From Deltaproteobacteria bacterium (GTDB lineage Bacteria > Desulfobacterota > Dissulfuribacteria > Dissulfuribacterales > DYLC01): 64,000 bases of DNA. Position numbers and translations under genes: made by a program. Under the pieces are notes generated by a model. It saw nothing but the letters and a program-made list of their open reading frames with translations. It had not been told where the DNA came from and did not search any database. Positions 32,147 to 46,859 of this stretch are shown in pieces. The stretch is taken from the NCBI GenBank assembly GCA_028695735.1, contig JAQVIJ010000001.1, forward strand, positions 175,081 to 239,080. Direction: 5' to 3'. The first letter of the stretch is position 1; every line of letters begins with the position of its first letter.

Positions 32147-32791
32147 ATGGAATTGCTGCTGAAATTTATTGACATCTTTTTACACCTGGATATTCACTTA
32201 AAGGAACTCATAGAGACCTACGGCTTTCTGACTCACTTCATTCTCTTTGCCATCATCTTCTGTGAGACAGGCCTGGTGGTCACGCCCTTTTTGCCGGGGG
32301 ATTCCCTGCTCTTTGCAGCGGGTGCCTTTGCTGCCATAGGTGGTCTGCGCATAGAGCTGCTCTTTCCCCTTTTGGCCATGGCCGCCTTTTTGGGCGACAA
32401 CCTGAACTACTGGATCGGAAGCCAGATAGGGGCCAAGGCCTTTACTCTGAACTCCCGCTTTCTTCGCAGGGAATATCTGGAGAGGACTCAGCGCTTCTAT
32501 GCCAAGCACGGAGGTAAGACCGTGATTATCGCCCGTTTCATTCCCATCGTGCGCACCTTTGCGCCCTTTGTAGCCGGCATCGGGGCCATGAGGTATTCGA
32601 AATTCATAGGATTTAGCGTCCTGGGCTCCTTTCTCTGGATGTCGGTCTTTTTGACAGGTGGCTATTTCTTCGGAAACATCCCCATGGTGAAACGCAACTT
32701 CACTCTGGTGATTTTGGCCATCATAGTCATTTCAGTGATGCCCATGGCCTTGGAGTGGTGGAAGGCCAGGGTCAAGCAAAAGGCCGTATGA
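32147..32791 (+). CDS. DedA-family membrane protein
   Basis: A 214-residue polytopic protein. The family signature is present: FCETGLVVTPFLPGDSLLFAAGA, AFLGDNLNYWIGSQIG, and the FIPIVRTFAPFVAGIGAM loop with paired Arg. DedA proteins move polyprenyl or phospholipid carriers across the inner membrane. A role in recycling the lipid carrier for nearby sugar genes is possible but not shown. It ends in an ATGA overlap with pseF. Confidence 0.92.
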   Translation: MELLLKFIDIFLHLDIHLKELIETYGFLTHFILFAIIFCETGLVVTPFLPGDSLLFAAGAFAAIGGLRIELLFPLLAMAAFLGDNLNYWIGSQIGAKAFTLNSRFLRREYLERTQRFYAKHGGKTVIIARFIPIVRTFAPFVAGIGAMRYSKFIGFSVLGSFLWMSVFLTGGYFFGNIPMVKRNFTLVILAIIVISVMPMALEWWKARVKQKAV

Positions 32792-33501
32792 ACATCGCCA
32801 TTATTACCGCACGAGGCGGCTCCAAACGCATACCCAGAAAGAACATTCGAGACTTCTGCGGCAGGCCCATTATCTCCTACAGCATCGAGACCGCCATTAC
32901 CTCAGGCCTGTTTCAGGAGGTGATGGTCTCCACAGATGACGAGGAGATCGCTGAAATCGCCAAAAGATATGGGGCATCCGTGCCGTTTATGCGCAGTTTA
33001 GAGACAGCCAATGACTATGCCACCACATCTGATGTGCTGGTAGAGGTGCTGACAAATTACAAACAAATGGGCCGCAATTTTGACTATGGCTGCTGTATAT
33101 ATCCCACTGCTACCCTTCTCACTGTCAGTACATTAAAACAGGCCTGGGATATTTTACAAAATGACTCTATCATTCATAGTGTATTTCCAATCATTCAATT
33201 TCCATCAGCTATTCAAAGGGCCTTACGCAGAAATACTGATGGCATAGTGAGCATGTTCAATCCAGAATATATGAATACACGCACTCAAGATTTGGAAAAG
33301 GCCTATTATGATGCAGGGCAATTCTACTGGTTTCATGTCAACACATTTATGGAAAACAAAAGAATTTATGGCGATAAAAGCTATGGTCTAATTATAGATG
33401 AAATGGATGCCCAAGACATAGACAATGAATCTGACTGGAAGATTGCTGAATTCAAATATCAATACAGATTATTGCAGACCAAACAAATGGAGGAAGTATG
33501 A
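32788..33501 (+). CDS. pseF: Pseudaminic acid cytidylyltransferase
   Basis: PseF activates pseudaminic acid to the CMP-sugar. From the Met at 32788, overlapping the DedA stop, it has 237 residues. It starts MNIAIITARGGSKRIPRKNI, the nucleotide-binding signature of CMP-sialate synthetases, followed by GRPIISYSIETA and MVSTDDEEIAEIAKRYGA. The 3' half becomes clearly A/T-rich. The next three genes are pathway partners. A sialic-acid-type synthetase is the alternative, but the neighbours favour pseudaminic acid. Confidence 0.92.
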   Translation: MNIAIITARGGSKRIPRKNIRDFCGRPIISYSIETAITSGLFQEVMVSTDDEEIAEIAKRYGASVPFMRSLETANDYATTSDVLVEVLTNYKQMGRNFDYGCCIYPTATLLTVSTLKQAWDILQNDSIIHSVFPIIQFPSAIQRALRRNTDGIVSMFNPEYMNTRTQDLEKAYYDAGQFYWFHVNTFMENKRIYGDKSYGLIIDEMDAQDIDNESDWKIAEFKYQYRLLQTKQMEEV

Positions 33502-34118
33502 CTAATTTTACAACTGAGCAAGAAAAATTTTGGGCAGGCGAATTTGGAAATGAATATATTCAGCGAAATAGAGACGCAAAGATTATAGCAAACAACTTAG
33601 CCTTTTTTGCTAAGGCATTACAGCATACAACTGAAATCAAAAGCTGCATAGAATTCGGAGCAAACATAGGGCTAAATCTAATAGCATTAAAACAACTTTG
33701 CCCTGATATTCAACAATATGCCATAGAAATCAATTCAAAGGCAGCTAAACAGCTAAAAGATGTCATAGGAGAGGATAATGTATTCGAAGGTTCAATTCTA
33801 CAATACCAACCCCAAAAGCAATTTGATTTGGTTTTATCAAAAGGTGTGTTGATTCACATCAATCCAGATGTATTGGATTCAGTCTATGAAAAGCTATATT
33901 CATCCTCACAAAAATATATCTTACTTGCAGAATATTACAATCCAACGCCGGTCAATATTCCATATCGAGGCCATACAGACAAACTGTTTAAGCGGGATTG
34001 GGCAGGCGATCTCCTTACAAAATACACAGACCTACAACTCATAGACTATGGCTTTGTCTATCGAAGGGACCGCTTTCCTCAAGACGATCTCCACTGGTTC
34101 TTGCTGAAAAAGGCCTGA
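33498..34118 (+). CDS. Pseudaminic acid biosynthesis-associated methylase
   Basis: A 206-residue SAM-dependent methyltransferase-like protein. The SAM site is CIEFGANIGLNLIALKQLCP (about residues 51-70), and LVLSKGVLIHINPD follows. The start FTTEQEKFWAGEFGNEYIQRN and the NPTPVNIPYRGHTDKLFKRDWAG segment are distinctive of the methylase found in pseudaminic acid clusters. Its acceptor is not known; a methylated sugar is the likely product. The gene is strongly A/T-rich compared with its flanks. It overlaps pseF by 4 nt. Confidence 0.9.
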   Translation: MTNFTTEQEKFWAGEFGNEYIQRNRDAKIIANNLAFFAKALQHTTEIKSCIEFGANIGLNLIALKQLCPDIQQYAIEINSKAAKQLKDVIGEDNVFEGSILQYQPQKQFDLVLSKGVLIHINPDVLDSVYEKLYSSSQKYILLAEYYNPTPVNIPYRGHTDKLFKRDWAGDLLTKYTDLQLIDYGFVYRRDRFPQDDLHWFLLKKA

Positions 34119-34122
34119 TTCC

Positions 34123-35169
34123 ATGCTGTTTCTGATTCGAGCCGATGCCTCCTTCAGAATAGGCAGCGGTCACATCATGCGATGTCTGACCCTTGCCCAG
34201 GGCCTTGAGAAAGAAGGCCACAAATGCATCTGGTTCTGTCGCAGGCGCCCAGGTCATCGCATTGAGCTGCTGAAAAATCGAGGCCTTGAGGTCATAGAAC
34301 TCCCCTTTTACGACGACAGCCAGGCCGAAAATCCCTTTTTCATAGGCGGAGAGGTGAGTGAAGAGATTTGCGCCATAAAAACAGTCATAAAGTCCCATTC
34401 ATCTGATTTTATTACATTTATCTCGGATCACTATGGCATTGGAAAGGATTATGAAACGAGGCTGCGGCCCCTTGTTCAGCGCATCTTCGTCATAGATGAC
34501 CTGCAAGAGGCCAGCCATGACTGCGACATCCTCTTAAATCAAAATTACCTCAAGGAGGTCAAGTATGCTCAACTGGTGCCACGCCACTGCCAGGTGCTTT
34601 TAGGCCCGAAGTATGCCCTGTTGCGAAAGGAGTTTTGGGAGGCCCGTCAAAAACTGGCACAGGCACCTGGCCCCCTGTCTTTTTCCAAGGTCCTTGTGTT
34701 TTTTGGGGGAATGGACACTCAAAACCACACCCTAAAGGCCGTACAAGCCCTCATGGCCACACATGAGCCCTTTAGCCCCGAGGTGGTAGTGGGCAAGGAG
34801 CATCCGTCTCTGAATCTGCTGAGAGACCTGCTGTCCTCCATTCATGACGCTCATCTGCATGTGGAGACTCAGCAAATGGCAGAGGTGATGCTGAAATGTG
34901 GTTGGTATTTAGGCTCAGGCGGCACCATCACATGGGAACGCATGTGTTTGGGCTTAACCGGCATCGTAATCCCTGTGGCAGCCAATCAATTGGCCTTTAC
35001 ACAGGCATTGGTAAGGGATGGTTACCAACTGATGCTGAATCACATCGAGGAATTGAATAAAAGCCTGTTAAATAAGCTTGCCAATCAATTGGAATTCATG
35101 CGGCATAAATGTATGGAATTAGTAGATGGAATGGGCACAAAAAGGGTAATTCAATGTCTATTAAATTAA
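34123..35169 (+). CDS. pseG: UDP-2,4-diacetamido-2,4,6-trideoxy-beta-L-altropyranose hydrolase
   Basis: PseG removes UDP in pseudaminic acid synthesis. The 348-residue GT-B-fold protein has FLIRADASFRIGSGHIMRCLTLAQGL at the start with the active-site His, FISDHYGIGKDYE, VIDDLQEASHDCDILLNQN, and GSGGTITWERMCLGLTG near the end. It lies 4 nt after the methylase gene and overlaps pseH by 16 nt. Confidence 0.93.
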   Translation: MLFLIRADASFRIGSGHIMRCLTLAQGLEKEGHKCIWFCRRRPGHRIELLKNRGLEVIELPFYDDSQAENPFFIGGEVSEEICAIKTVIKSHSSDFITFISDHYGIGKDYETRLRPLVQRIFVIDDLQEASHDCDILLNQNYLKEVKYAQLVPRHCQVLLGPKYALLRKEFWEARQKLAQAPGPLSFSKVLVFFGGMDTQNHTLKAVQALMATHEPFSPEVVVGKEHPSLNLLRDLLSSIHDAHLHVETQQMAEVMLKCGWYLGSGGTITWERMCLGLTGIVIPVAANQLAFTQALVRDGYQLMLNHIEELNKSLLNKLANQLEFMRHKCMELVDGMGTKRVIQCLLN

Positions 35170-35621
35170 GACAGGCTGAAGAAAGAGATGCGGCAATACT
35201 TTATGAATGGGCAAATGATACGCTCACAAGAAAATACTCTTTTCACACTAATGCTATTACATGGGATGAACACATTCAATGGTTTAATACAAAACTCCTT
35301 GACAATAACTCAAGAATCTTCATAATGGAAGTTGAACAAGAACCAGTTGGTCAGATTCGATTTGACTTTAGGAATGAGAATACCATTTACATAAGTTATG
35401 CAATAGCTCCAAGACATCGCGGTAAGGGTTATGGCACTCAATTAGTGAAATTGGGTATTGAAACAATAAAAAAATTGGCTCAAAAACGAAAGGTCAATCT
35501 TATTGCTGAAGTAAAAAAAGACAATATCGCCTCTTGCCGCATCTTTGAAAAACACCAATTTACCTTAATCAAAAGCACAGATGATTGTATGACATATGGC
35601 CTTACATTAGAGGGACATTAG
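35154..35621 (+). CDS. pseH: UDP-4-amino-sugar N-acetyltransferase PseH (GNAT)
   Basis: A 155-residue GNAT enzyme from the start MSIKLRQAEERDAAILYEWAND. It has the acetyl-CoA loop APRHRGKGYGTQLVKLG and the C-terminal NIASCRIFEKHQFT. PseH N4-acetylates the amino sugar before PseG acts. The assignment rests on the GNAT fold plus its place between pseG and pseI. The gene is A/T-rich. An upstream ATG would add 15 residues from the pseG overlap. Confidence 0.88.
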   Translation: MSIKLRQAEERDAAILYEWANDTLTRKYSFHTNAITWDEHIQWFNTKLLDNNSRIFIMEVEQEPVGQIRFDFRNENTIYISYAIAPRHRGKGYGTQLVKLGIETIKKLAQKRKVNLIAEVKKDNIASCRIFEKHQFTLIKSTDDCMTYGLTLEGH

Positions 35622-35637
35622 AAAATTGTCATTTTAT

Positions 35638-35666
35638 TCACAACTGCATTGCTCGTGGGCGAAAAG
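35638..35666. repeat. Dispersed intergenic repeat, copy without hairpin
   Basis: TCACAACTGCATTGCTCGT followed by GGGCGAAAA. It is the partner of 28760-28815 but lacks the 29-nt hairpin between the two conserved blocks. The GAAAATT just upstream also resembles the other copy. Confidence 0.75.
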
Positions 35667-35730
35667 GCTAATTTCTCAATGTATCATATAGGTTTCCAGT
35701 TAAAATATAGAAGTCAAGAGGTATCTTGCC

Positions 35731-36774
35731 ATGTCTCCACAAGAAGTCATGAAACTCATCGAACAAGCCCAGCCGTTCATCATCGCTGAGATGTCGGCCA
35801 ACCACAACCAATCCCTGGAAAAGGCCTTGCAAATCGTAAACGCAGCAGCGAAGGCCGGTGTCAATGCCCTGAAACTCCAGACCTACACCCCTGACACCCT
35901 CACCATCGACAAGGCAGACGGCGAGTTCTTCATACACGACTCAAAAAGCCTTTGGCAAGGCGAATCCCTCTATAACCTCTATAAAAAGGCCTATATGCCC
36001 TGGGAGTGGCATGAACCCATCTTCAAAAGGTGCAGAGAACAGGGCATCGTACCCTTTAGCACCGCCTTTGACGCCACTTCCGTGGAACTTTTGGAGGCAC
36101 TGGGCGTCGAGCTCTACAAGATCGCCTCCTTTGAGATAGTGGACATTCCACTGATACAAAAAGTAGCCCGCACAGGAAAGCCCATTCTCCTCTCCACAGG
36201 CATGGCCACGGTGGCGGAGATTCATGAGGCGGTATGCGCCATAAGAGAGACCGGCAATGCCCATGTGGTGCTGCTCAAGTGCACCAGCACCTACCCCAGC
36301 TCCCCTGAAAACTCCCATCTGCGCACACTCCCTCACATGCGACAGCTCTTTGACTGCCCTGTGGGCATCTCTGACCACACCCTGGGCATCGGCGTGGCAG
36401 TGGCAGCAGTGGCCCTGGGCGCACAGGTCATTGAAAAGCACTTCACCTTAAGCCGCTCTGAAGGTGGAGTAGATGCCCCCTTCAGCTTAGAGCCTCATGA
36501 GATGCAGGCATTGGTGGAAGAGACACGGCGGGCATGGCAGGCCTTGGGCAGGGTTCACTACGGGCCTTCAAGGGCAGAGGAGGACTCCCTGGTCTTTCGG
36601 CGCTCCCTCTATGCCGTGCAAGACATAGCAGAAGGAGAGGAATTCACGGAAAAGAATGTGCGCAGCATTCGGCCTGGCCATGGCCTTGCCCCCAAATATC
36701 TGAAAATCCTCTTGGGCAGGCGGGCAAGAAGGGCCATTCAAAGAGGAGAGCCCATCACCTGGGAGATGTTTTAG
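35731..36774 (+). CDS. pseI: Pseudaminic acid synthase
   Basis: PseI condenses 6-deoxy-AltdiNAc with phosphoenolpyruvate. The 347-residue protein has the NeuB fold: PFIIAEMSANHNQSLEKALQ, ALKLQTYTPDT, LLSTGMATVAEI, LLKCTSTYPSSPE and VGISDHTLGIGVAVAA. A C-terminal SAF/antifreeze-like domain (about residues 285-345) has RRSLYAVQDIAEGEEFTEKNVR. The TYTPDT motif favours PseI over NeuB or LegI. It lies 109 nt after pseH across a repeat, and is richer in G/C than pseH. GAGGT precedes the ATG. Confidence 0.93.
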   Translation: MSPQEVMKLIEQAQPFIIAEMSANHNQSLEKALQIVNAAAKAGVNALKLQTYTPDTLTIDKADGEFFIHDSKSLWQGESLYNLYKKAYMPWEWHEPIFKRCREQGIVPFSTAFDATSVELLEALGVELYKIASFEIVDIPLIQKVARTGKPILLSTGMATVAEIHEAVCAIRETGNAHVVLLKCTSTYPSSPENSHLRTLPHMRQLFDCPVGISDHTLGIGVAVAAVALGAQVIEKHFTLSRSEGGVDAPFSLEPHEMQALVEETRRAWQALGRVHYGPSRAEEDSLVFRRSLYAVQDIAEGEEFTEKNVRSIRPGHGLAPKYLKILLGRRARRAIQRGEPITWEMF

Positions 36775-36798
36775 CCTTCAAAGTCCTGGCTTTTTTGC

Positions 36799-37629
36799 CT
36801 AATCTCCAGGCTGCTGTCTGGCATCCAGGGCGTCCCTTAACCCCTCTCCCAAGAGATTATAGCCCAGTACGGTGATCAAGATGGCCATGCCTGGAAAGAA
36901 GGACAACCACCAGGCGATCTCCAGGTTGTCCTTGCCCTCAGTGAGCATATTGCCCCAACTGGGGGTGGGCGGCTGCACACCTATGCCCAAAAAGCTCAGG
37001 GCGCTTTCCACCAAAATCGCCGAACCGATACCCAGGGTAGCCGAGACCAGCACAGGAGCCGCTGCATTGGGCAGGATATGAGAGAAGATGATGCGCAAGT
37101 CAGAGGCGCCTATGATGCGGGCAGCCAGCACAAAATCCCGAGTCTTCAGGCTCAGGAATTCCGCCCGCACCAGACGGGCCACCCCCATCCAGCCCGTAAG
37201 CCCGATGACTACCATGATATTCCAGATGGACGGCTCCAAAAAGGCGATGACCGCCATGATGAGAAATATGGTGGGAAAACAGAGCATTACATCCACAAAA
37301 CGCATCAAAAGCAGGTCTATCCAGCCGCCATAAAAGCCAGCTAATGCCCCAAGAATCGAGCCCACCAGTGTGGCGATGCCCACCGCTACTATACCCACCA
37401 GAAGGGAGATGCGGGCTCCGTAGATCATACGGGAGAGGCAGTCCCTGCCCAAGGAATCCGTGCCAAATGGATGTGCCCAGGTGGGGGGTTGCAGGATGTT
37501 CCACGTGTCTATGACCTGTGGGTCGAATGGGGCAAGCCACGGGGCAAAGGCCGCTGCAATGAACAAAACGGCCACAATGAAAAGGCCTGTCATGGCCGGT
37601 TTATTGTGCTGAAGGCGCTTAAACCACAT
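36799..37629 (-). CDS. Dipeptide/oligopeptide ABC transporter permease (OppC/DppC type)
   Basis: A 276-residue inner-membrane permease with about six membrane helices. Typical segments are APWLAPFDPQ, HPFGTDSLGRDCLSRMIYGARISL, and the EAA-loop region ARIIGASDLRIIFSHILPN. The partner permease, binding protein and ATPases are absent from both sides, so this is an isolated gene here, converging on pseI. Substrate: peptides or nickel are possible in this family, but cannot be told. Confidence 0.92.
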   Translation of the reverse strand: MWFKRLQHNKPAMTGLFIVAVLFIAAAFAPWLAPFDPQVIDTWNILQPPTWAHPFGTDSLGRDCLSRMIYGARISLLVGIVAVGIATLVGSILGALAGFYGGWIDLLLMRFVDVMLCFPTIFLIMAVIAFLEPSIWNIMVVIGLTGWMGVARLVRAEFLSLKTRDFVLAARIIGASDLRIIFSHILPNAAAPVLVSATLGIGSAILVESALSFLGIGVQPPTPSWGNMLTEGKDNLEIAWWLSFFPGMAILITVLGYNLLGEGLRDALDARQQPGD

Positions 37630-37670
37630 ATCTTATTCTTAACAGACTTGCCGACCGATTAAAAGGCACA

Positions 37671-37697
37671 AAAAAAGGGCGCACTTTTGCGCCCCTT
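37671..37697 (-). terminator. Intrinsic terminator after flgM
   Basis: On the minus strand the stem GGGCGCA / TGCGCCC with an AAAG loop is followed by seven T residues. It is 21 nt past the flgM stop and separates flgM from the ABC permease gene. Confidence 0.85.
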
Positions 37698-37717
37698 TGA
37701 AACGGCCCGGAAGGCGA

Positions 37718-38080
37718 TCAGCCCATGTTGTTGAGCACGTCTTTCATAACGGCATTGGCAAGCCTGGCGTTGTCCACCGTGTATGTGCCCGCCTGAACGC
37801 GCTGTTTAATGGACTGCACATAGACTGCACGATTTGCATCCTGTGGTGCATTGACCTGGTCGGTTGCTGTATTGCGCTGGGCGCTTAATGCCTTTGCCTG
37901 GGCCGAAAGCTCCACTCGATCCGCGGTGCGGGTAGGGGCAGCCGCAGCATTATTTCCAGTGGTCTGCCCTGCCTGTGCCACATCGTTTGCGATATTCTGG
38001 GGTCTTTGTGTCTTCTGAGCACTATTGAGGTTATTTACATAGTTATTTAGAGGGGCCTTTGAAACGGATTGAATAGCCAT
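37718..38080 (-). CDS. flgM: Anti-sigma-28 factor FlgM
   Basis: FlgM holds sigma-28 (FliA) until the hook is complete and is then exported. The 120-residue protein starts at 38080 with AAGGAGGTC upstream. It has an Asn/Gln/Ala-rich flexible first half, then ADRVELSAQAKALSAQ, and a C-terminal sigma-binding part VQSIKQRVQAGTYTVDNARLANAVMKDVL, the core of the family. A sigma-28-type promoter lies about 190 nt upstream, so it is a class 3 flagellar gene and feeds back on itself. Confidence 0.92.
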   Translation of the reverse strand: MAIQSVSKAPLNNYVNNLNSAQKTQRPQNIANDVAQAGQTTGNNAAAAPTRTADRVELSAQAKALSAQRNTATDQVNAPQDANRAVYVQSIKQRVQAGTYTVDNARLANAVMKDVLNNMG

Positions 38081-38272
38081 ATCCGACCTCCTTTCAAGTC
38101 TGTTCGCTTGTATGATAACATCTTTTGTAGAAAATTCCATAGGTATTTGCTTAAAAACATGCCCTTTTATAAGGGAGCCCTCAAAATTGTCCTTTTGCCT
38201 GATGGCCGTGTTGATTAGAACAGAAAAACGGTTTTATATTGTTTGTATTCCAAGCTCGACACGGTATTTTTC

Positions 38273-38300
38273 TTATCGGCAAGGCATTCAAAGGACTTTA
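38273..38300 (-). promoter_or_regulatory. Sigma-28 (FliA) promoter of flgM
   Basis: On the minus strand TAAAGTCC (38300-38293), a 12-nt spacer, and GCCGATAA (38280-38273). The -10 part is a perfect match to the flagellar sigma consensus. The spacing equals that of the fliC promoter at 46961-46988. Confidence 0.85.
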
Positions 38301-38365
38301 ATTTGAACTCAAATAATCAGCAAAAGGCCCCTGAAATTCAACGCAACACACAAAAAACCTCGGCA

Positions 38366-39646
38366 ATGAACGGGATTTGGCTCGTTCTCATGGCATCGGC
38401 CATTGTGCTCGCCGCCTTTTATGGCAAGGCCGCGGACATCACACGTGCCTCCTTTGATGCCGCAAAAGCCGCTGTGGAGCTGGCCATCGGCCTCATAGGC
38501 GCCATGAGCCTGTGGCTTGGGCTTATGCACATAGCTGAAAAGGCAGGTCTGATGCACTCCATTGCCCAATGGATTCAACCCGTGATGCGGCGGCTCTTTC
38601 CAGACATTCCACCGGGCCATGCCTCCCTTTCAGAGATGGCCATGAACATGTCCGCCAACATTCTCGGGCTGGGAAATGCGGCCACGCCCCTGGGCATCAA
38701 GGCCATGCAGTCCTTAAACCGCTTAAACGCCAGGCCTGGTGAGGCCACGGATGCCATGTGTATGTTTCTGGCCATCAACACCTCCAGCATTACTCTACTG
38801 CCCCTGGGCATGATCAGCATTCGGGCTGCAGCAGGAAGCCAGAATCCTGCGGCCATTCTTCTTCCCACGCTCATAGCCACCACCTGTTCCACTGTGGCCG
38901 CTGTGGCCACGGTAATCCTGCTGAAACGGCTCTTCAAGGACTCCAACCCCTCCATGCAGACCGAAGTCAATGAAACCGCTGAATTCGAGGCAAGGCAGGC
39001 CACTGACCCTGTGAGTGATAAGACCTGCACCGTATCAACGAACAAAAACCGTATCCTTTGGGCCGCCTTTTTCCTATTGTGCTTTATCGGCGCAGCCATG
39101 TGGGGCATGCTTCGCAATGGTGGCAGTCTTCATTTCACTGACCTCTTCATTCCCCTTTTGATGCTCTGTCTTTTGTGCCTTGGATATGCACGAGGGGTGT
39201 CGGTCTATGAGGCCGCAGTGGAAGGGGCAAAGGAAGGGTTTCAGGTGGCTGTGCGTATCATTCCGTTTCTTGTGATGATATTGGTGGCAGTGGGCATGTT
39301 CCGGGCCTCTGGCGCATTTGATCTGCTTCAGACCCTGCTTGCGCCTGTGACAGCCTGGCTTGGCATACCTGTGGAGGCAGTGATCGTGGCCATTTTGCGC
39401 ACGCTGTCGGGTTCAGGGGCCTTTGGCCTGGTAAGTGAGATCACGGCTCAAGACCCCAATGGTTTTACTGCGTTTCTGGCCGCCACCATTCAGGGCTCCA
39501 CAGAAACGACCTTTTATGTGCTGGCCGTTTATTTCGGCTCTGTGGGAATATATCGGCCCAGACATGCCCTGCCTGCCGCCCTCATAGCCGATCTGGCAGG
39601 CTTTGTGGCCTCGGTGGTGGTGTGCAAGGCCATGTACAATGGGTAG
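38366..39646 (+). CDS. SpmA-SpmB fusion, nucleoside-recognition-domain membrane protein
   Basis: From the Met at 38366 it has 426 residues. The first half matches SpmA (MNGIWLVLMASAIVLAAFYG, IGLIGAMSLWLGLMHIAEKAG, LGLGNAATPLGIKAMQSLN). The second half, after a charged linker at about residues 200-230, matches SpmB (GAKEGFQVAVRIIPFLVMILVAVGMFRASG, LSGSGAFG, GSTETTFYVLAVYFG). In Bacillus these are separate spore-core dehydration genes; similar fusions occur in non-spore-formers with unknown function. A TTG at 38303 with AAAGGA upstream is an alternative start, but that sequence is also the flgM promoter. Confidence 0.85.
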   Translation: MNGIWLVLMASAIVLAAFYGKAADITRASFDAAKAAVELAIGLIGAMSLWLGLMHIAEKAGLMHSIAQWIQPVMRRLFPDIPPGHASLSEMAMNMSANILGLGNAATPLGIKAMQSLNRLNARPGEATDAMCMFLAINTSSITLLPLGMISIRAAAGSQNPAAILLPTLIATTCSTVAAVATVILLKRLFKDSNPSMQTEVNETAEFEARQATDPVSDKTCTVSTNKNRILWAAFFLLCFIGAAMWGMLRNGGSLHFTDLFIPLLMLCLLCLGYARGVSVYEAAVEGAKEGFQVAVRIIPFLVMILVAVGMFRASGAFDLLQTLLAPVTAWLGIPVEAVIVAILRTLSGSGAFGLVSEITAQDPNGFTAFLAATIQGSTETTFYVLAVYFGSVGIYRPRHALPAALIADLAGFVASVVVCKAMYNG

Positions 39647-39659
39647 GGGGCCTTGTACC

Positions 39660-40424
39660 CTATGTAACGGTTCTGCGCACCGGAATGCCCTGGCTGAAGA
39701 GAAAATCCCTGACCTGCGCAGGTGTCTGCTCAGTAAAGTGAAAGATACTGGCAGCGGCCACGGCATTTGCCCCGTGTTGTATGGCCTCAAGCATGTGTTG
39801 TGGGCTTCCTGCCCCTCCTGATGCGATCACAGGAATGCTGACCTGCCTTGTCACCTCTTCGATGAGCTTGAGGTCATAGCCCTGCATGGTTCCGTCTAAC
39901 TCAATGGATGTGATGAGTATCTCGCCTGCGCCAAGCCCCTCACAAAATCGCGCCCATTCACCAGGCCGCTTGCCTGTTGGCAGTCTTCCGCTGTGGCTAT
40001 AACACTCGTAATCGCCATTTGCGGTCTTACGGGCATCTATGCTCACAACCACGCACTGTGAGCCAAACCTCTTGGCCGCCTCGGAGATGAGGTTTGGCTG
40101 CTCATAGGCAGCGCTGTTGATGGAGACCTTGTCTGCCCCACACCGCAACAGCCGCCTTATCTGCTCCAGATTGCGAATACCGCCACCTATGGTCACTGGC
40201 ACAAAACATTCCTGCGCCCAATCGGCTATGGTCTCATAATCCGGCTCTCGCATCTCGTCAGTGGCAGTGATATCCAGGAGAATCAATTCATCCACCTCTC
40301 GCATGGTATAGACCTTTATGGCTGGAAGCACCGTGCCAACCCTGCGCCAGGAGTCAAAACCTATGCCCTTTACCAGCCCTATATTCTTCCAAAGCAAGGT
40401 GGGAATAATTCGTGTCTTAAGCAT
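39660..40424 (-). CDS. HisF-like cyclase subunit of the sugar amidotransferase system
   Basis: A 254-residue TIM barrel of the imidazole-glycerol-phosphate synthase F family: TRIIPTLLWKNIGLVKG, ELILLDITATDE, PVTIGGGIRNLEQIRRLL, GADKVSINSAAYE, VVVSIDARK, PVIASGGAGSPQHM. It differs from histidine HisF at the start (PTLLWKNIGLVKG instead of PCLDVKDGRVVKG). That form accompanies LPS or flagellin sugar amidotransferases. It follows the HisH-like gene by 1 nt, and no histidine genes are near. It would deliver ammonia to the PseA-type enzyme. Confidence 0.9.
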   Translation of the reverse strand: MLKTRIIPTLLWKNIGLVKGIGFDSWRRVGTVLPAIKVYTMREVDELILLDITATDEMREPDYETIADWAQECFVPVTIGGGIRNLEQIRRLLRCGADKVSINSAAYEQPNLISEAAKRFGSQCVVVSIDARKTANGDYECYSHSGRLPTGKRPGEWARFCEGLGAGEILITSIELDGTMQGYDLKLIEEVTRQVSIPVIASGGAGSPQHMLEAIQHGANAVAAASIFHFTEQTPAQVRDFLFSQGIPVRRTVT

Positions 40425-40425
40425 A

Positions 40426-41043
40426 TCATTTAATCTTCAGAAAATTCTTGAGCAATCGAAGGCCTGCCTTGGAGCTCTTCTCAGGGTGAAATTGAGTGCC
40501 AAGCACAGTGCCTCTTCCCACTACAGATACAAAACTCCCGCAGTAAGGGGTTATTGCCAAGGCATTTTCCTTATCATGTGGCACAAAGTGATAGCTGTGC
40601 ACAAAATAAAAATCTGTGCCCTTCTCAATTCCATCAAACAATGAATGGGGCCCTTGAAAATGGACCTCATTCCAGCCCACATGGGGAATGCGCTCCTTGC
40701 CATGCACAGGCTCAAGCCTAATCACCCTGCCTGGTATCAGGCCAAGCCCTTGAGTCTCTCCTCCTTCCGTGCCCATCTCGGCCAGAAGCTGCATGCCCAG
40801 GCAGATGCCCAAAACAGGCAATCCATCCTTCAAGGCAGCCTGTTTTATGGCCTTGTCCCAGCCCTTTTCCCTTAAGGCCTCCATGGCGTCATGAAAGGCA
40901 CCCACTCCAGGCAGAACAAGGCGTTCGGCATCAGCCATATCAGAAGGGTCATTTGAGATAAAGACATGGGCACCTGCCTCCTCAAATGCCCTGCGCACCG
41001 AGGCCAGATTTCCCATGCCGTAATCTATAATCAAGACAGACAT
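40426..41043 (-). CDS. HisH-like glutaminase subunit of the sugar amidotransferase system
   Basis: A 205-residue class I glutamine amidotransferase. It has the nucleophile elbow PVLGICLGMQLLAEMG (Cys) and the His/Glu pair in VLGTQFHPEKSSKAG, plus IPHVGWNEV. Together with the HisF-like partner it would release ammonia from glutamine. The position between the HisF-like gene and the PseA-like gene, with pseudaminic acid genes nearby, supports a role in forming an acetamidino group rather than in histidine synthesis. Confidence 0.92.
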   Translation of the reverse strand: MSVLIIDYGMGNLASVRRAFEEAGAHVFISNDPSDMADAERLVLPGVGAFHDAMEALREKGWDKAIKQAALKDGLPVLGICLGMQLLAEMGTEGGETQGLGLIPGRVIRLEPVHGKERIPHVGWNEVHFQGPHSLFDGIEKGTDFYFVHSYHFVPHDKENALAITPYCGSFVSVVGRGTVLGTQFHPEKSSKAGLRLLKNFLKIK

Positions 41044-41050
41044 AAACGCC

Positions 41051-42202
41051 TCAAGGGTTGTCGTAGTTGATCTTGGTCAGATTGCCGTATTTGTCTTTGA
41101 CCAGGTTGCCCCTGGCATCGGTCACAAACAACTTTTTATTGGTAAACCTGTCACATATTTTGATGAACTCGTCCACAGTGAGCTCCAGGGGTTCCAATAT
41201 CTTTTCCAGAGGCTTTCCCAGATATGTCCAGGGAAATTTGCCGTCATGCCTTTTGACCAATTCCAGCCCCTCTTCCCTTGTAATGCGGCCACGCCGAATG
41301 TGAAGGGAGGCTATATCAGTGGCCCTGCCAAAACCGAATTTGAGAAACTTGAAGTAATCGTGTATGCCTGTCTGGTGATTGTCCAGATTTTCATAGTTCA
41401 CCACTGAACCCTCCACCGTGGTGTGCCATGTGTTAAAGCCAAAACCTTGAGCCAAAAGGGCATTGGAATAGCCGTCCCACGGCAGGTAATAGCCCAAAAA
41501 AAGCCCTGTGACCCCCACTTGTTTCAACCCCTCGTCAGAGGGATAGGTAAATGGAATCAGGTGCCTCTTCTCAATCCCCTCCACGCCTATGAGGTCAGAG
41601 ACTCGAAGTCCCAGGAGCCCGCCGAACTCCTCGAGCCAGCGGCGGTCCAGGGTGTTGTTTTCGGTGGCCGAGGCAGGGCCGCCGTATTCGTTCTGCGAAT
41701 TCTCGCCCCAGATGATGAGGGGCACACGGAACTGCACTGCTACGCGCACAGGCACCGTAAAGATGGTGACATGTTCGGGCCAGGAGATGTCGCCCACCTG
41801 CATCAGCCCTATGCGATTTAGCTTTCTACGCACTACACGATTGGTGGTCACCTCTATATAGTCCACGCCCAAGGACTTGAGGTTTTCGATGTTGCGTCGA
41901 CCTATCTCTGAAAGGTCGCAGGTGGTGCCGGTCACACACAGGGGGTTCATACCCAGCTCCAGCATCTTTATGGTCTGAAAATGGCTGTCCTTTCCGCCGC
42001 TGACTGGAATGATGCAATCCCAGTTGGAGCCGTCTTTAGAGCGATAACGCTCCAGTATCTCCATCAATTCCTGCCTACGCCGTGCCCAGTCTATAAAAGG
42101 CCGCCTCTCATAGTTTCTACAGGCATTGCACACCCCTTCTTCATCAAAGGACAGATCCGGCTTGGTCTCAGGGAACAGACATTTTTTACAGTAACGTATC
42201 AT
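41051..42202 (-). CDS. pseA: N-acetyl sugar amidotransferase (PseA/WbpG family)
   Basis: A 383-residue protein. An N-terminal Cys cluster CKKCLFPETKPDLSFDEEGVCNAC looks like a zinc site. A PP-loop ATPase core begins CIIPVSGGKDSHFQTIKML (about residues 64-82). NSQNEYGGPASATENN and YYLPWDGYSNA are characteristic of the family. Campylobacter PseA and Pseudomonas WbpG members convert an N-acetyl group to acetamidino using ammonia. With the two downstream His-like subunits it forms a three-gene set. GGGAGG lies about 10 nt before the ATG, at the end of an upstream gene relic. Confidence 0.92.
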   Translation of the reverse strand: MIRYCKKCLFPETKPDLSFDEEGVCNACRNYERRPFIDWARRRQELMEILERYRSKDGSNWDCIIPVSGGKDSHFQTIKMLELGMNPLCVTGTTCDLSEIGRRNIENLKSLGVDYIEVTTNRVVRRKLNRIGLMQVGDISWPEHVTIFTVPVRVAVQFRVPLIIWGENSQNEYGGPASATENNTLDRRWLEEFGGLLGLRVSDLIGVEGIEKRHLIPFTYPSDEGLKQVGVTGLFLGYYLPWDGYSNALLAQGFGFNTWHTTVEGSVVNYENLDNHQTGIHDYFKFLKFGFGRATDIASLHIRRGRITREEGLELVKRHDGKFPWTYLGKPLEKILEPLELTVDEFIKICDRFTNKKLFVTDARGNLVKDKYGNLTKINYDNP

Positions 42203-42205
42203 ATC

Positions 42206-42337
42206 TCATGTACCTCCCTTTTCTTTTAGGTCCCACTCATGCGCAAGTATGGCGTATTCAATTACATCATAGAACCTGCCATGCTTATAAAAGGCCTCTC
42301 TTTGCACACCTTCTTTTTTCATACCACAGGCCTCACA
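42206..42337 (-). pseudogene. GNAT acetyltransferase relic (C-terminal end only)
   Basis: Minus-strand translation gives CEACGMKKEGVQREAFYKHG then RFYDVIEYAILAHEWDL, ending at a TGA at 42206-42208. This is the C-terminal pattern of RimJ/RimL-type N-acetyltransferases. No start or N-terminal domain precedes it: the frame is closed by a TAA at 42338 and continues into a different gene relic. It probably survives from an acetyltransferase gene lost by deletion. The end still provides the pseA ribosome site. Confidence 0.65.
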
Positions 42338-42511
42338 TTAAAGACCAGAGATAGCACCTTGCTCCTTACGAAAAAAGATGGCTCGTGCAGGGCTGGAAGC
42401 CTTACCAAACACATGCCAATTACATAGGTTGCGGTGTCTATGTATCAAGCTGGACAAGACCTCCGCCCCTCCTGCATCATGGCAGACCACGAGGATATTA
42501 TGCCTTTTCAT
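42338..42511 (-). pseudogene. Truncated gene overlapping the maf stop (N-terminal relic)
   Basis: A 57-residue frame beginning MKRHNILVVCHDAGGAEVLS, whose ATG lies inside the last codons of maf. The start has the beta-loop-helix look of a Rossmann or GT-B N-terminus. The overlap with maf is the kind of coupling seen for a real operon gene. The frame stops after GKASSPARAIFFRKEQGAIS, far too early for such a fold. The same frame, after one TAA, continues as the GNAT relic, so a deletion seems to have joined two genes. Confidence 0.6.
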
Positions 42512-45500
42512 GGGCCAAGATCGCCTCTTTCACGGCCTCAAAGACTTCCTGCCAGTCATTGCGGCTACTTTGTCTAAAGAGTTGCATATTGCTGTACCAC
42601 GGGGTCTGCCTCGTGTTAATGCCCCATCTCCAGTCAGGCACATAGGCCAAAAGGGTCCAGACCTTCGGCCGTTTTTGGCCGTCAGGCGGCAGTATGGCGC
42701 CTGCCAAATGGGCAATGGAGGTGTCAACTGTTATCACCAGGTCCAAACAACTGACAATAGCGGCTGTATGGGCAAAGTCCACAAGATACGGGGCAAGGTT
42801 GTGCACATTTGCCCGCTCAACCGCAAGGGGCTCACTTTGATACTGTAGGCTGAACCACTGGGTATCAGGAAGCTCAAAAAGCGGCTTAAACATCTCAAAG
42901 GCCACTGAACGCTCTTTGTCCCGATTGTGTTTAGGGTTGCCCTTCCAGACAAAACCAATGCGCAAGGCCTTACCCATGTGCGAAAACAATCGTTCCATCC
43001 GTCCCTTCAGCCCAATATCCACCTTCAGATACCCGTCAGCCAGAGGAAACGGCCTCGAATCCTCCTGTAAATGGCTGGGCAGGTCCAAAAGTGGCACATG
43101 CCAGTCCATATTTTCGCAGGCCAGGGCCATGTGTGACTTCAAGATCACTTGTTCCACGGCCTCCATAGGCTCAAAGAGCCGGGCCAGCTCTGGGCCACAG
43201 GCCAAGGTCACCCGTTTCCCCTGTTCCCTTAAGAGGGGCAGATAGCGCACAAACTGAATGTTGTCGCCCGCTCCCTGTTCCACCCAGACCAGGATATTGC
43301 CAGGCCCGGTCTCTCCTCGCCAGAGCGGCAGGGATACTGGCGCATAAGGAGGGGCCTCCTTGCGTCGCCAGCGCCAGAGATACTCCTGAAATCCCTCCTT
43401 CACCTGATTATTGAGCAATAACACATGGCTGAGATTCCAATGGGCCTCCACCAAATCAGGTGCAAGGGCTACGGCCTTTTTGTAATACTCTATGGCAGCA
43501 GGGATGTCCATGAGCTCTTGATAGCAGTTGGCCATGTTGTAATAGGCCCTGGCCGCATCAAAGCCCTGACCATCGATTAACTCCAGGGCCTTTTGAAAAT
43601 ATGTCAGCGCAGCCTCATATGCCTTGCGATACTCCTTTAGAAGATGCCCCAAGTTGTTATATGCCCCTGAATAACTGGAGTCAGACTCTATGACTCGCCT
43701 AAAAAGGGCCTCTGCCTCGTCTATGTGCTTTGTGTCCAGATAGAGACAGGCCAGGTTGTAGAGCACATCCACATTGCCTTCATCGCAACGCAAGGCATTT
43801 TTAAAGGCCTCTTCAGCCTCCATATGGCGATTGAGCCTGCTGTAGGCCACACCCATGTTCATCCAGGCGGTGATGTGACCTGGATGCAATCGCACGGCCT
43901 CCTGGTATCGGGCTATGGCCTCCTCCAGGCGCTCCGCCTTCTGGAGTTGAAGCCCCTCTTGAAAACACCTCTCTGACTGTTCAAGCCCGGCATCCTTCTG
44001 AAAACGCTCCTTAAAGGCCTCGTAGGCCGCCTTGGCGGCCTCGATTTGGCCTGTCTCCAGATAGCAGTCTCCCATCTTCTTAAAGAGCTCTATGCGCTGG
44101 GGCAGGGCCAGAAGACAGCGCTCGTAGGCGGCAATGGCGCCTTCATAGTCCTGGGATTCCACCAGTGCATCGCCCAGTTCCTGCCAGAGCACAGCGGTTT
44201 CAGGCTCCAGGCCCACAGCCTCTGTGAGCAGTTGAATGCCCTCCTCCATTCGGTTGTTTTCCATGAGGACCCGTGCCAAGAAGGCCAGGCGCCTGCCATT
44301 TCCTTGGGCCTCTGCCATGGCCTGAGGCAGGACATCGGCCAGGGCATTCAAGTCCTCCAGCCTGTAAAAGACTTGGGCTGATAAAGAGGCATGGCCATTT
44401 AGCGGCAAAAGGGGAGTCCAGGCCTGAAGTATGGAGGAGGCCTTTTCGGCATTGTCTTCCACCAGGGCATTTAAACGCCCCTCGTACTGAGGCCAGACCT
44501 CTGTCTTCAGGGCCGAAACGGCCTTGGCTGCCTTTAAGGTGCATATGCGCTGAATCCACTGGGCAAGCAGGTGTGGGTACTTTTCACCCCAGAGCAGGTA
44601 TTCGCCGTCCGGCTGGGCCACATATTCCCTGTGACTGGTCAGACGCAGCCAGGGTGCGGCCGCAAGCTCCCGCAGATGATCGACCTCCTCATTCAGGGAC
44701 GCATTCAATTGCACAGCCCTGTTCCAATGTACCTCCGCCTCTTCAAAGTTTAAGAGCCCGGCCAGCACAAACCCCATGAGGGCATTGGCGGTGGCCTCTT
44801 CCGGCACTGACTGCAATATCTCTTTTAAGACCCCTTGAGCCAAGACCAGGTCCTCTGATTGCACATAGAGTTTGGCCAACTCCAGGCGGCTTGCCAGGGC
44901 ATCTTCTGGGCTTTTGGCCTTGGAAATGGCCGTTAAGAGCCGATCCTCTTCATTCAATCTGTGCTCCAGGTCCTTCATAAGGCCCTGATACAGCCCCAAG
45001 ACCTCCAAACGCTTCTCCTGGACCATGAGCAGCCGTTCCAGCTCGGCCTTCAGCCAGGCAAGATACCCCTGCTCCTCACGAATGCGCTCATTTTGGTATT
45101 TGATTTTGTCATTTTCCTGAAGCATGTTGTAGGTGAGCTCCAGGACCTGGTTCCAGAGCTCATTATAGCCGTCGGTCTTGTTGTTGAGCCTGTCCAATTG
45201 AATCATCTCATTTCGAATAGGAGCAGGCAGGTCCTCCAGAGACCTGACGATTACACCCTTTTCCAACAGGTCATCTATGCGTTTCAGCCCGCCTGACAAG
45301 AGCCTTTTGGCCTTTTTCACCTGTTCCAACACATCCCTGCACAGAGACAGGCTCCTTTTGCAGTAGGATGAGATTTGGCTATTCTGCCACGGCTTATGGC
45401 TGGCTATGGTCTCTTCCAGGAGGGCATGGAAATCAAATTCCTCGGTCATGAACTCTTGAATGACCTCGGCCAGGGGCATGACGCGAGTGCCGGCGATGTG

Positions 45501-46859
45501 TGCCCCACGGGCAGTGGCGTTGATGATGGGCACAGGGCTCTGAGCCACGATCTCCTCAAACTGTTGTTTAAGGCTCATCAAACCCCGATCTGTGGGGATA
45601 TCCTCGCCCGTAATAGACTTGACATAATATATCTCTTTGTCTTTTGGCAGGCCCTTTTCATGGAATATGACACCGGATGCATGGTCAGAACCAGTGGTCT
45701 TGGTGTAGGCCAGGTCCTGGCCCACCAGCACGATGGGCGAGGCCTCCATGAGATGGGCAAGGCCGACGGAGAGGTGCGCCACTGACAGAAGGGGCGGCAG
45801 AAGGTGCCGAACACCCAACTGTTGAATCATCCACATGTGAGGAATGTCTTCATTAAAGGCGTAAAAGATGTGTTGAGCGGGCAGGCGCTTGGGAATAAGC
45901 GGGCATACCTTTATGGTGATGGCCAGGGCGAAAGACAACCGGGATGCGAGAAACGGCGCCACCTTTTCAAAGTTGGCGTCCTCCATGTCCAGAGAGGCGA
46001 TGAAGTCAGGCACGATGCCGTTTTTCAGCAGGGTTGGAAGTGCGGAATCCACTGCAAAGATGGCGCATCTGCCCACGGCCTTTTGAATGTCCGGTATGCT
46101 CATGTCCAAAGAGGGCCCGGCCGCTACAAGCAGGGCAGGACGGCCCTTCAATAATCCCTTGAGTATATCTGTGTTGGTGGCATGACGAATATTTGTGAGA
46201 TTGGCCAACCTGTTTTTTACAAAGGTCTCGCCATAATAATTAGTGGTGCTGCCCATGGCATTGATCTTGTTCAGGAGCTGAAACACCCGGTCATTTGTCT
46301 CCTCGTACAACCGTGTCTGCCAGGAGAAGCTGGGCTGGTGCTTGAGGATGTGCGTGTCTGAGATGGCCACCTCCCTGCCCAGCTCCCGTTCCATACGAAC
46401 CGGGTCCCAATCCCCCACATATAAAAAGGTCTTGGCCGAGCCCAAAAGGGGTGTGAGGTCCACATGGCGCAGGGCAATACAAAATATATCAAGAGATGGC
46501 TCCACTATGGCCAGTTTTGCTATGGCAGGTCTCTCTCTTAAAATGAGAAGGGGGCCGTAACCCAGGCCCATACCCACAAAGATCACCACACCCGATGCAT
46601 CCTCTTTGACCGTCTGAAAGTGAACGGCCGCACTGCTCCAGGGGTCGTCGTTGTCATAGGCCAAAAATGCGGCGCCGTTTGAGAGCTGGTAGCGCAGGTT
46701 CGCAAGACCATTGGCGCTCTTGAGCACCTCACCGTCAAAAACCGGTCTATGCTGTTCCACCAAGGCGTGAATATGGGGAAATCGTTGTTTGAGCAGGGCA
46801 AGATTTGCCTGGAAAAGGGCGGAATCGCCTGAAAAATCCATAGACACCATAGAACCCAT
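42498..46859 (-). CDS. maf: Motility accessory factor (flagellin glycosyltransferase) fused to TPRs and a second transferase domain
   Basis: A 1453-residue protein. Residues about 1-230 are the Maf N-terminal region (VVIFVGMGLGYGP, VEPSLDIFCIAL). Residues about 205-420 hold the MAF/DUF115 core with PALLVAAGPSLDMSIPDIQK and FAVDSALPTLLKNGIVPDF. A helical segment (about 480-650) is probably coiled coil. Residues about 690-1165 carry TPRs such as AWMNMGVAYSRLNRHMEAEE. The last 290 residues resemble the GT9-like domain of TPR transferases (NILVWVEQGAGDNIQFVRYL, LRIGFVWKGNPKH, DLVITVDTSIAHLAGA). Maf proteins move CMP-pseudaminic or legionaminic acid to flagellin. AGGAG precedes the ATG. It is divergent from fliC. 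Confidence 0.92.
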   Translation of the reverse strand: MGSMVSMDFSGDSALFQANLALLKQRFPHIHALVEQHRPVFDGEVLKSANGLANLRYQLSNGAAFLAYDNDDPWSSAAVHFQTVKEDASGVVIFVGMGLGYGPLLILRERPAIAKLAIVEPSLDIFCIALRHVDLTPLLGSAKTFLYVGDWDPVRMERELGREVAISDTHILKHQPSFSWQTRLYEETNDRVFQLLNKINAMGSTTNYYGETFVKNRLANLTNIRHATNTDILKGLLKGRPALLVAAGPSLDMSIPDIQKAVGRCAIFAVDSALPTLLKNGIVPDFIASLDMEDANFEKVAPFLASRLSFALAITIKVCPLIPKRLPAQHIFYAFNEDIPHMWMIQQLGVRHLLPPLLSVAHLSVGLAHLMEASPIVLVGQDLAYTKTTGSDHASGVIFHEKGLPKDKEIYYVKSITGEDIPTDRGLMSLKQQFEEIVAQSPVPIINATARGAHIAGTRVMPLAEVIQEFMTEEFDFHALLEETIASHKPWQNSQISSYCKRSLSLCRDVLEQVKKAKRLLSGGLKRIDDLLEKGVIVRSLEDLPAPIRNEMIQLDRLNNKTDGYNELWNQVLELTYNMLQENDKIKYQNERIREEQGYLAWLKAELERLLMVQEKRLEVLGLYQGLMKDLEHRLNEEDRLLTAISKAKSPEDALASRLELAKLYVQSEDLVLAQGVLKEILQSVPEEATANALMGFVLAGLLNFEEAEVHWNRAVQLNASLNEEVDHLRELAAAPWLRLTSHREYVAQPDGEYLLWGEKYPHLLAQWIQRICTLKAAKAVSALKTEVWPQYEGRLNALVEDNAEKASSILQAWTPLLPLNGHASLSAQVFYRLEDLNALADVLPQAMAEAQGNGRRLAFLARVLMENNRMEEGIQLLTEAVGLEPETAVLWQELGDALVESQDYEGAIAAYERCLLALPQRIELFKKMGDCYLETGQIEAAKAAYEAFKERFQKDAGLEQSERCFQEGLQLQKAERLEEAIARYQEAVRLHPGHITAWMNMGVAYSRLNRHMEAEEAFKNALRCDEGNVDVLYNLACLYLDTKHIDEAEALFRRVIESDSSYSGAYNNLGHLLKEYRKAYEAALTYFQKALELIDGQGFDAARAYYNMANCYQELMDIPAAIEYYKKAVALAPDLVEAHWNLSHVLLLNNQVKEGFQEYLWRWRRKEAPPYAPVSLPLWRGETGPGNILVWVEQGAGDNIQFVRYLPLLREQGKRVTLACGPELARLFEPMEAVEQVILKSHMALACENMDWHVPLLDLPSHLQEDSRPFPLADGYLKVDIGLKGRMERLFSHMGKALRIGFVWKGNPKHNRDKERSVAFEMFKPLFELPDTQWFSLQYQSEPLAVERANVHNLAPYLVDFAHTAAIVSCLDLVITVDTSIAHLAGAILPPDGQKRPKVWTLLAYVPDWRWGINTRQTPWYSNMQLFRQSSRNDWQEVFEAVKEAILAHEKA

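Follow-up and report, generated by a model that had tools for sequence, protein, structure and literature searches.

Strain-to-strain variation in flagellin sugar genes has been described in Geobacillus, in genomic islands where truncated genes are marked as well (PMC5109656). In Campylobacter, flagellins carry pseudaminic acid (Pse) and Leg with acetamidino groups; the Pse also bears further substituents, and some of the glycans are extended by a deoxypentose (PMC3958885).

We analyzed a stretch of 64,000 nucleotides from a Deltaproteobacteria bacterium (hereafter, the window), in which the space between the maf stop and the pseA start is taken up by one minus-strand frame consisting of two gene pieces split by a single TAA (Table 1). 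We consider it very probable that maf and pseA were once separated by a sugar module of five genes, that a single deletion of ~4.4 kb took out its central part and left a fused remnant of gene1, a predicted carbohydrate gene, and a GNAT acetyltransferase gene, and that the pseudaminic-acid set was kept.

Table 1. Features of the remnant and of the retained sugar genes, in coordinates of the window (G001, the same-family relative compared)
Feature	Coordinates	Strand	Description
maf	42498..46859	-	Flagellin glycosyltransferase of Maf_flag10/MptE-like type, containing TPR repeats; 14-nt overlap with relic 1
Relic 1	42338..42511	-	ATG and first 57 codons of gene1 (predicted GT-B-type carbohydrate gene)
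Relic 1, aligned part	42511-42365	-	Codons 1-49, gap-free alignment to intact relatives
Junction zone	42338..42364	-	27 nt matching neither gene; contains the TAA (42338-42340)
Relic 2	42206..42337	-	Last 43 codons and stop of a GNAT acetyltransferase gene
Relic 2, aligned part	42337-42233	-	35 codons, 27/35 identical to G001 GNAT residues 144-178
pseA Shine-Dalgarno-like GGGAGG	42213..42218	-	Within the last codons of relic 2
pseA	41051..42202	-	WbuX/TIGR03573 N-acetyl sugar amidotransferase, intact
hisH-type glutaminase	40426..41043	-	pseA partner, intact
hisF/WbuZ/AglZ-type gene	39660..40424	-	pseA partner, intact
pseF, Pse-associated methylase, pseG, pseH-like GNAT, pseI	32755..36774	+	Rest of the window's pseudaminic-acid pathway

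Two gene relics between maf and pseA

The frame (42511-42206) opens with an ATG at 42511, which overlaps the maf stop (42500-42498), runs through 57 codons to the TAA and, after another 43 codons, closes with a TGA at 42208-42206. An earlier note on this DNA had described this arrangement, and the ATG overlapping maf, the single TAA and both fragments are present exactly as claimed; the pseA ribosome site that it placed in the second fragment is the GGGAGG motif in the tail of relic 2. Taken by itself the open frame is unremarkable (57 stop-free codons, P about 0.06). A search of 41900-42800 for a non-coding RNA in the gap gave nothing in Rfam at E 1 or below, and the one promoter-like site in the gap region, on the opposite strand, is at chance level.

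The homologies of the two relics exceed chance: their local alignment scores are 138 (relic 1) and 150 (relic 2), against maxima of 44 and 55, respectively, in 1,000 residue shuffles each. When relic 1 was searched in 79 related genomes (E up to 0.01), its best foreign match was to G001 (E 9.7e-13, within a 369-codon open frame), where residues 4-52 of the 359-residue gene1 product align without gaps and with 24/49 identities. The note's reading of this fragment as Rossmann-like is supported, the source being a Rossmann/GT-B-type protein. A second relative, G014, gave two matches, one in a 314-codon frame (E 9.1e-4) and one with internal stops that we took as chance (E 0.007). A gene1 profile built from four intact members, with the window left out, recovers relic 1 at E 1.4e-13; searches with the four-member profile found the family in 4 of the 395 genomes of the phylum, own genome counted, and no gene1 was found in plasmids.

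For relic 2, a search of 46 genomes of the class returned matches in its own genome and in G001 only (E 7.6e-15 to the 190-residue GNAT of G001), which bears out the GNAT origin given for the C-terminal fragment. The 50-aa tail alone has no Pfam match; the intact orthologue scores 82.1 against Acetyltransf_3 (cut-off 25.4). We also considered whether relic 2 derives from pseH and rejected this origin, as the scores of 35 and 22 lie within those of the shuffles, compared with 150 for the module GNAT.

That the frame is a real small gene under selection, the alternative that the note itself had raised, would fit the family-invariant residues kept in the 57 open codons. However, no short conserved frame was found in the 79 genomes, and both relatives with an unbroken match (2 of the 79) carry the full-length frames given above; we rejected this explanation, the probability of which we regard as close to negligible.

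The genes probably lost and the relative that retains them

G001 (DYLC01000022.1) is a metagenome bin recorded as isolate SulCav_AS07 of Desulfobulbus propionicus. It is the sole same-family relative compared, so that the gene order ancestral to the window's lineage is inferred from it. Its gene order is neuB, gene1, a SpsF-like cytidylyltransferase gene, Gfo/Idh, DegT, GNAT, pseA, an ATPase gene pair, hisH, hisF and maf. The comparison with relatives carrying intact genes proposed in the note can be made here, since the run from gene1 to pseA is unbroken in G001, and both end genes, gene1 and GNAT, are matched in the window by relics that lie immediately upstream of pseA, with order and strand unchanged. 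Between the matched ends lie 4,426 bases in G001, three whole genes included, versus 27 unaligned bases in the window. This difference, together with the G001 order, indicates that gene1 and the GNAT gene were truncated and that the SpsF-like, Gfo/Idh and DegT genes were removed whole. The scar is an ordinary gene-loss footprint, larger than first supposed: the deletion previously suggested stands, but it reached beyond most of two glycan genes to three further genes lost whole, over about 4.4 kb by comparison with G001.

Past codon 49, relic 1 aligns poorly to gene1, and nothing aligns to the GNAT before the cysteine codon at 42337. The TAA shares the reading frame of the two relics, which is impossible inside either intact gene; it was therefore most likely created at the joint, which would then lie at the TAA or within one codon of it. 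The comparison narrows the joint to the 27-nt zone, the nearest intact sequence being too distant for a closer placement.

We propose the following course of events. A five-gene sugar module would once have stood between maf and pseA, and a deletion of about 4.4 kb (the size taken from G001), which we infer to have been one event, would have excised its middle, leaving roughly the first 50-57 codons of gene1 and roughly the last 43 of the GNAT gene. The genes for the SpsF-like cytidylyltransferase, the Gfo/Idh oxidoreductase and the DegT aminotransferase would have been lost in between. The fused remnant, with a stop at the joint, would make no working enzyme; the full pseudaminic-acid set, the acetamidino enzymes PseA-HisH-HisF and Maf would all have been kept, and the flagella would presumably have lost an accessory sugar and kept the core sugar.

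With a single assembly in 9 contigs, one may ask whether the module is in fact intact and its ends were wrongly connected in assembly. The contig is 714 kb long, however, and when all five G001 proteins were searched against the own genome (2.22 Mb, 97% complete), no other orthologue-like copy was revealed, the matches being only the two relics and DegT paralogues at 32-38% identity. Since a misjoin would normally leave the three middle genes on another contig, and they are absent elsewhere in the assembly, we judge an artefact to be very improbable.

The window and G001 have diverged unevenly. Identities are 88% for pseA, 73% for hisH and 76% for hisF, compared with 36-59% for maf, the methylase, pseF, pseG and pseI, and maf, which follows hisF in G001, precedes the gene1 relic in the window. 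The mixed divergence (window 32755-46859) suggests that the two sets of genes have had separate histories. This mosaic and the location of maf at opposite ends of the operon in the window and G001 would also be expected if module-less DNA of another lineage had entered the locus by recombination or horizontal replacement, in which case the deletion did not take place in the window's lineage. Yet the scar is still a gene1-GNAT deletion joint, with 27 nt and nothing foreign between its two sides, and we consider replacement unlikely.

In G001, an AAA/OLD-like ATPase gene and a gene of unknown function (172 aa) lie between pseA and hisH (L015 4486-6107). The best PADLOC match of the ATPase gene is AbiLi (E 3.6e-22), and the two genes form a candidate defence pair within the glycan operon.

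Retained sugar genes

The retained genes apparently make up a complete acetamidino-pseudaminic-acid set, comprising the pseF-pseI region, pseB and pseC elsewhere, pseA-hisH-hisF and maf. The curated NCBIfam cut-offs are reached by pseF (299.3 bits, cut-off 205.7), pseG (276.3, 153.55) and pseI (485.3, 340.25), as well as by the Pse-associated methylase; pseA reaches that of WbuX TIGR03573 (339.6 bits, 203.2), and the PseH candidate, at 52.3 bits, is under its cut-off of 93.1. The PseB and PseC homologues are 51% and 46% identical to those of G001, their assignment being by identity to G001 only; their genes are adjacent and far from the other Pse genes (L114 3239-5367, equivalent to about 591,240-593,370 of contig G000:C2).

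The window also contains a gene for a flagellin of 802 aa (47139-49547), the middle of which is a long run of solenoid-like, imperfect repeats that give only weak, below-cut-off matches to hexapeptide/left-handed-helix models; no tandem repeat was found in this gene at the DNA level.

Age of the loss

Several features of relic 1 bear on the age of the deletion. In leave-one-out profiles it scores 30.5, 53.0, 50.4 and 43.8 bits, where the left-out intact members score 27.2, 55.3, 52.9 and 30.2, and, leaving out the start Met, it retains 12 of the 12 N-terminal columns that are family-invariant as judged on four sequences. Because relic 1 scores like intact members and keeps all of these residues, it appears undecayed and the loss looks recent. 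Dating by dN/dS was dropped, as synonymous sites were saturated in 8 of 10 pairs and saturated or nearly so between the window and G001; the recency proposed in the earlier note is thus consistent with the undecayed relic but carries no date.

Residue changes in the window and G001 were assigned by majority outgroup, using 15 chosen loci of 80 (14 for pseA). The counts (window:G001) are 11:23 for pseA, 14:14 for hisH and 14:19 for hisF, so that these genes do not look relaxed or faster-evolving in the window than in G001, in a test that is weak if the loss was very recent. Because the pseudaminic-acid and acetamidino genes are all present and pseA-hisH-hisF are not faster-evolving, the main sugar, the pseudaminic-acid core together with the acetamidino step, has probably persisted, and what was lost is probably an accessory sugar or branch. 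The note's proposal that the locus probably changed its sugar goes too far.

The undecayed state of relic 1 could also reflect retention of the remnant frames because they are translated as a leader, linking the translation of pseA with that of maf through a restart at the ATG at 42322, inside the scar. This ATG has GAGG upstream; the 14-nt overlap with maf, the Shine-Dalgarno-like motif inside relic 2 and the finding of no terminator-like site between maf and pseA would suit such a role. However, the short frames were found in no relative, the same features can be explained as remains of genes that overlapped in the ordinary way, and the lack of decay is accounted for by a recent deletion. 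We regard such a leader as quite improbable.

Distribution of the module

Our scan kept 80 of 232 relatives as pseA loci, the other 152 lying outside all module counts, which derive from tblastn searches of these 80 loci with the module genes and no ORF filter. Gene1 is full-length in 4 of the 80 loci and no other partial gene1 was found among them, so that no sign of recurrent decay was seen. The remaining 76 loci, some of them cut by contig ends, are without a gene1 match, implying that the lost module is not needed for Pse/Leg acetamidino modification. Gene order was surveyed on ORFs of at least 80 aa chosen by a greedy filter, which hid some true genes. In G014 (L067) and in locus L069, the five module genes follow hisF in another order, with the GNAT gene on the opposite strand. 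Like the position of maf after hisF in G001, this arrangement weighs against the deletion proposed here. In a Methylobacter locus (L082) Gfo, DegT, GNAT and gene1 are placed after neuB. In the search for the same scar in the order, pseA at this match level occurred in 3 of 46 genomes, own included.

A Pse cluster in a further relative, G013, has two pseA-like genes flanking a hisH-hisF pair (L111 4866-8769); Gfo, gene1-like, DegT and GNAT genes and maf lie downstream.

Possible role of gene1 and the lost module

Gene1 is probably a sugar transferase of GT-B type. Its predicted GT-B-type fold has modest confidence (mean pLDDT 62.5, with about 68-87 in the N-terminal 60 residues), and the closest folds to the model are UDP-GlcNAc 2-epimerases (E 3.5e-7) and the polysialyltransferase 5wcn (E 2.6e-6). 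By sequence, the matches to the polysialyltransferase family PF07388 (13.9 and 17.0 bits) are under the curated cut-off of 23.3, that to TIGR04396 is likewise under cut-off, and no relatives were found in the PDB.

Oxidation by Gfo/Idh, amination by DegT and acetylation by the GNAT would presumably suit an N-acetylated amino sugar, and we take the SpsF-like enzyme to suit activation of the sugar and gene1 its transfer. The lost product is accordingly likely to have been an N-acetylated amino sugar, carried as an accessory sugar on the flagella. In the parts of the literature searched, we found no description of the five-gene set (gene1, SpsF-like, Gfo/Idh, DegT, GNAT). A bolder proposal, which we hold to be possible but on balance doubtful, is that the deleted block represents an optional module, so far undescribed, through which acetamidino-Pse flagellin glycans receive a second amino sugar, that gene1 represents a new transferase family, and that the window's lineage has just switched glycoform by losing the block.

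Comparison with known systems

The scar is a clean, well-anchored case of module loss from a surface-sugar operon: as both ends of the lost block are readable, the lost content and the spared genes can be stated. It also shows that the block of five genes can be separated from PseA-HisH-HisF, which makes it a candidate accessory-sugar pathway.

The polysialyltransferases and UDP-GlcNAc 2-epimerases, both GT-B, resemble gene1 in that its predicted fold matches both, but its sequence matches stay under curated cut-offs and it has no solved relative by sequence. With Pse/Leg acetamidino modification (PseA; WbuX-HisH-HisF), the window shares a WbuX-type pseA together with hisH and hisF and the Pse pathway alongside, whereas the lost module is not required there. 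The variable flagellin glycosylation loci of Campylobacter and Geobacillus likewise have sugar-synthesis genes beside flagellin and maf, and these vary from strain to strain (PMC5109656, PMC3958885); the window differs in that its scar keeps both ends of the lost block and in that it belongs to an uncharacterised bacterium outside those genera.
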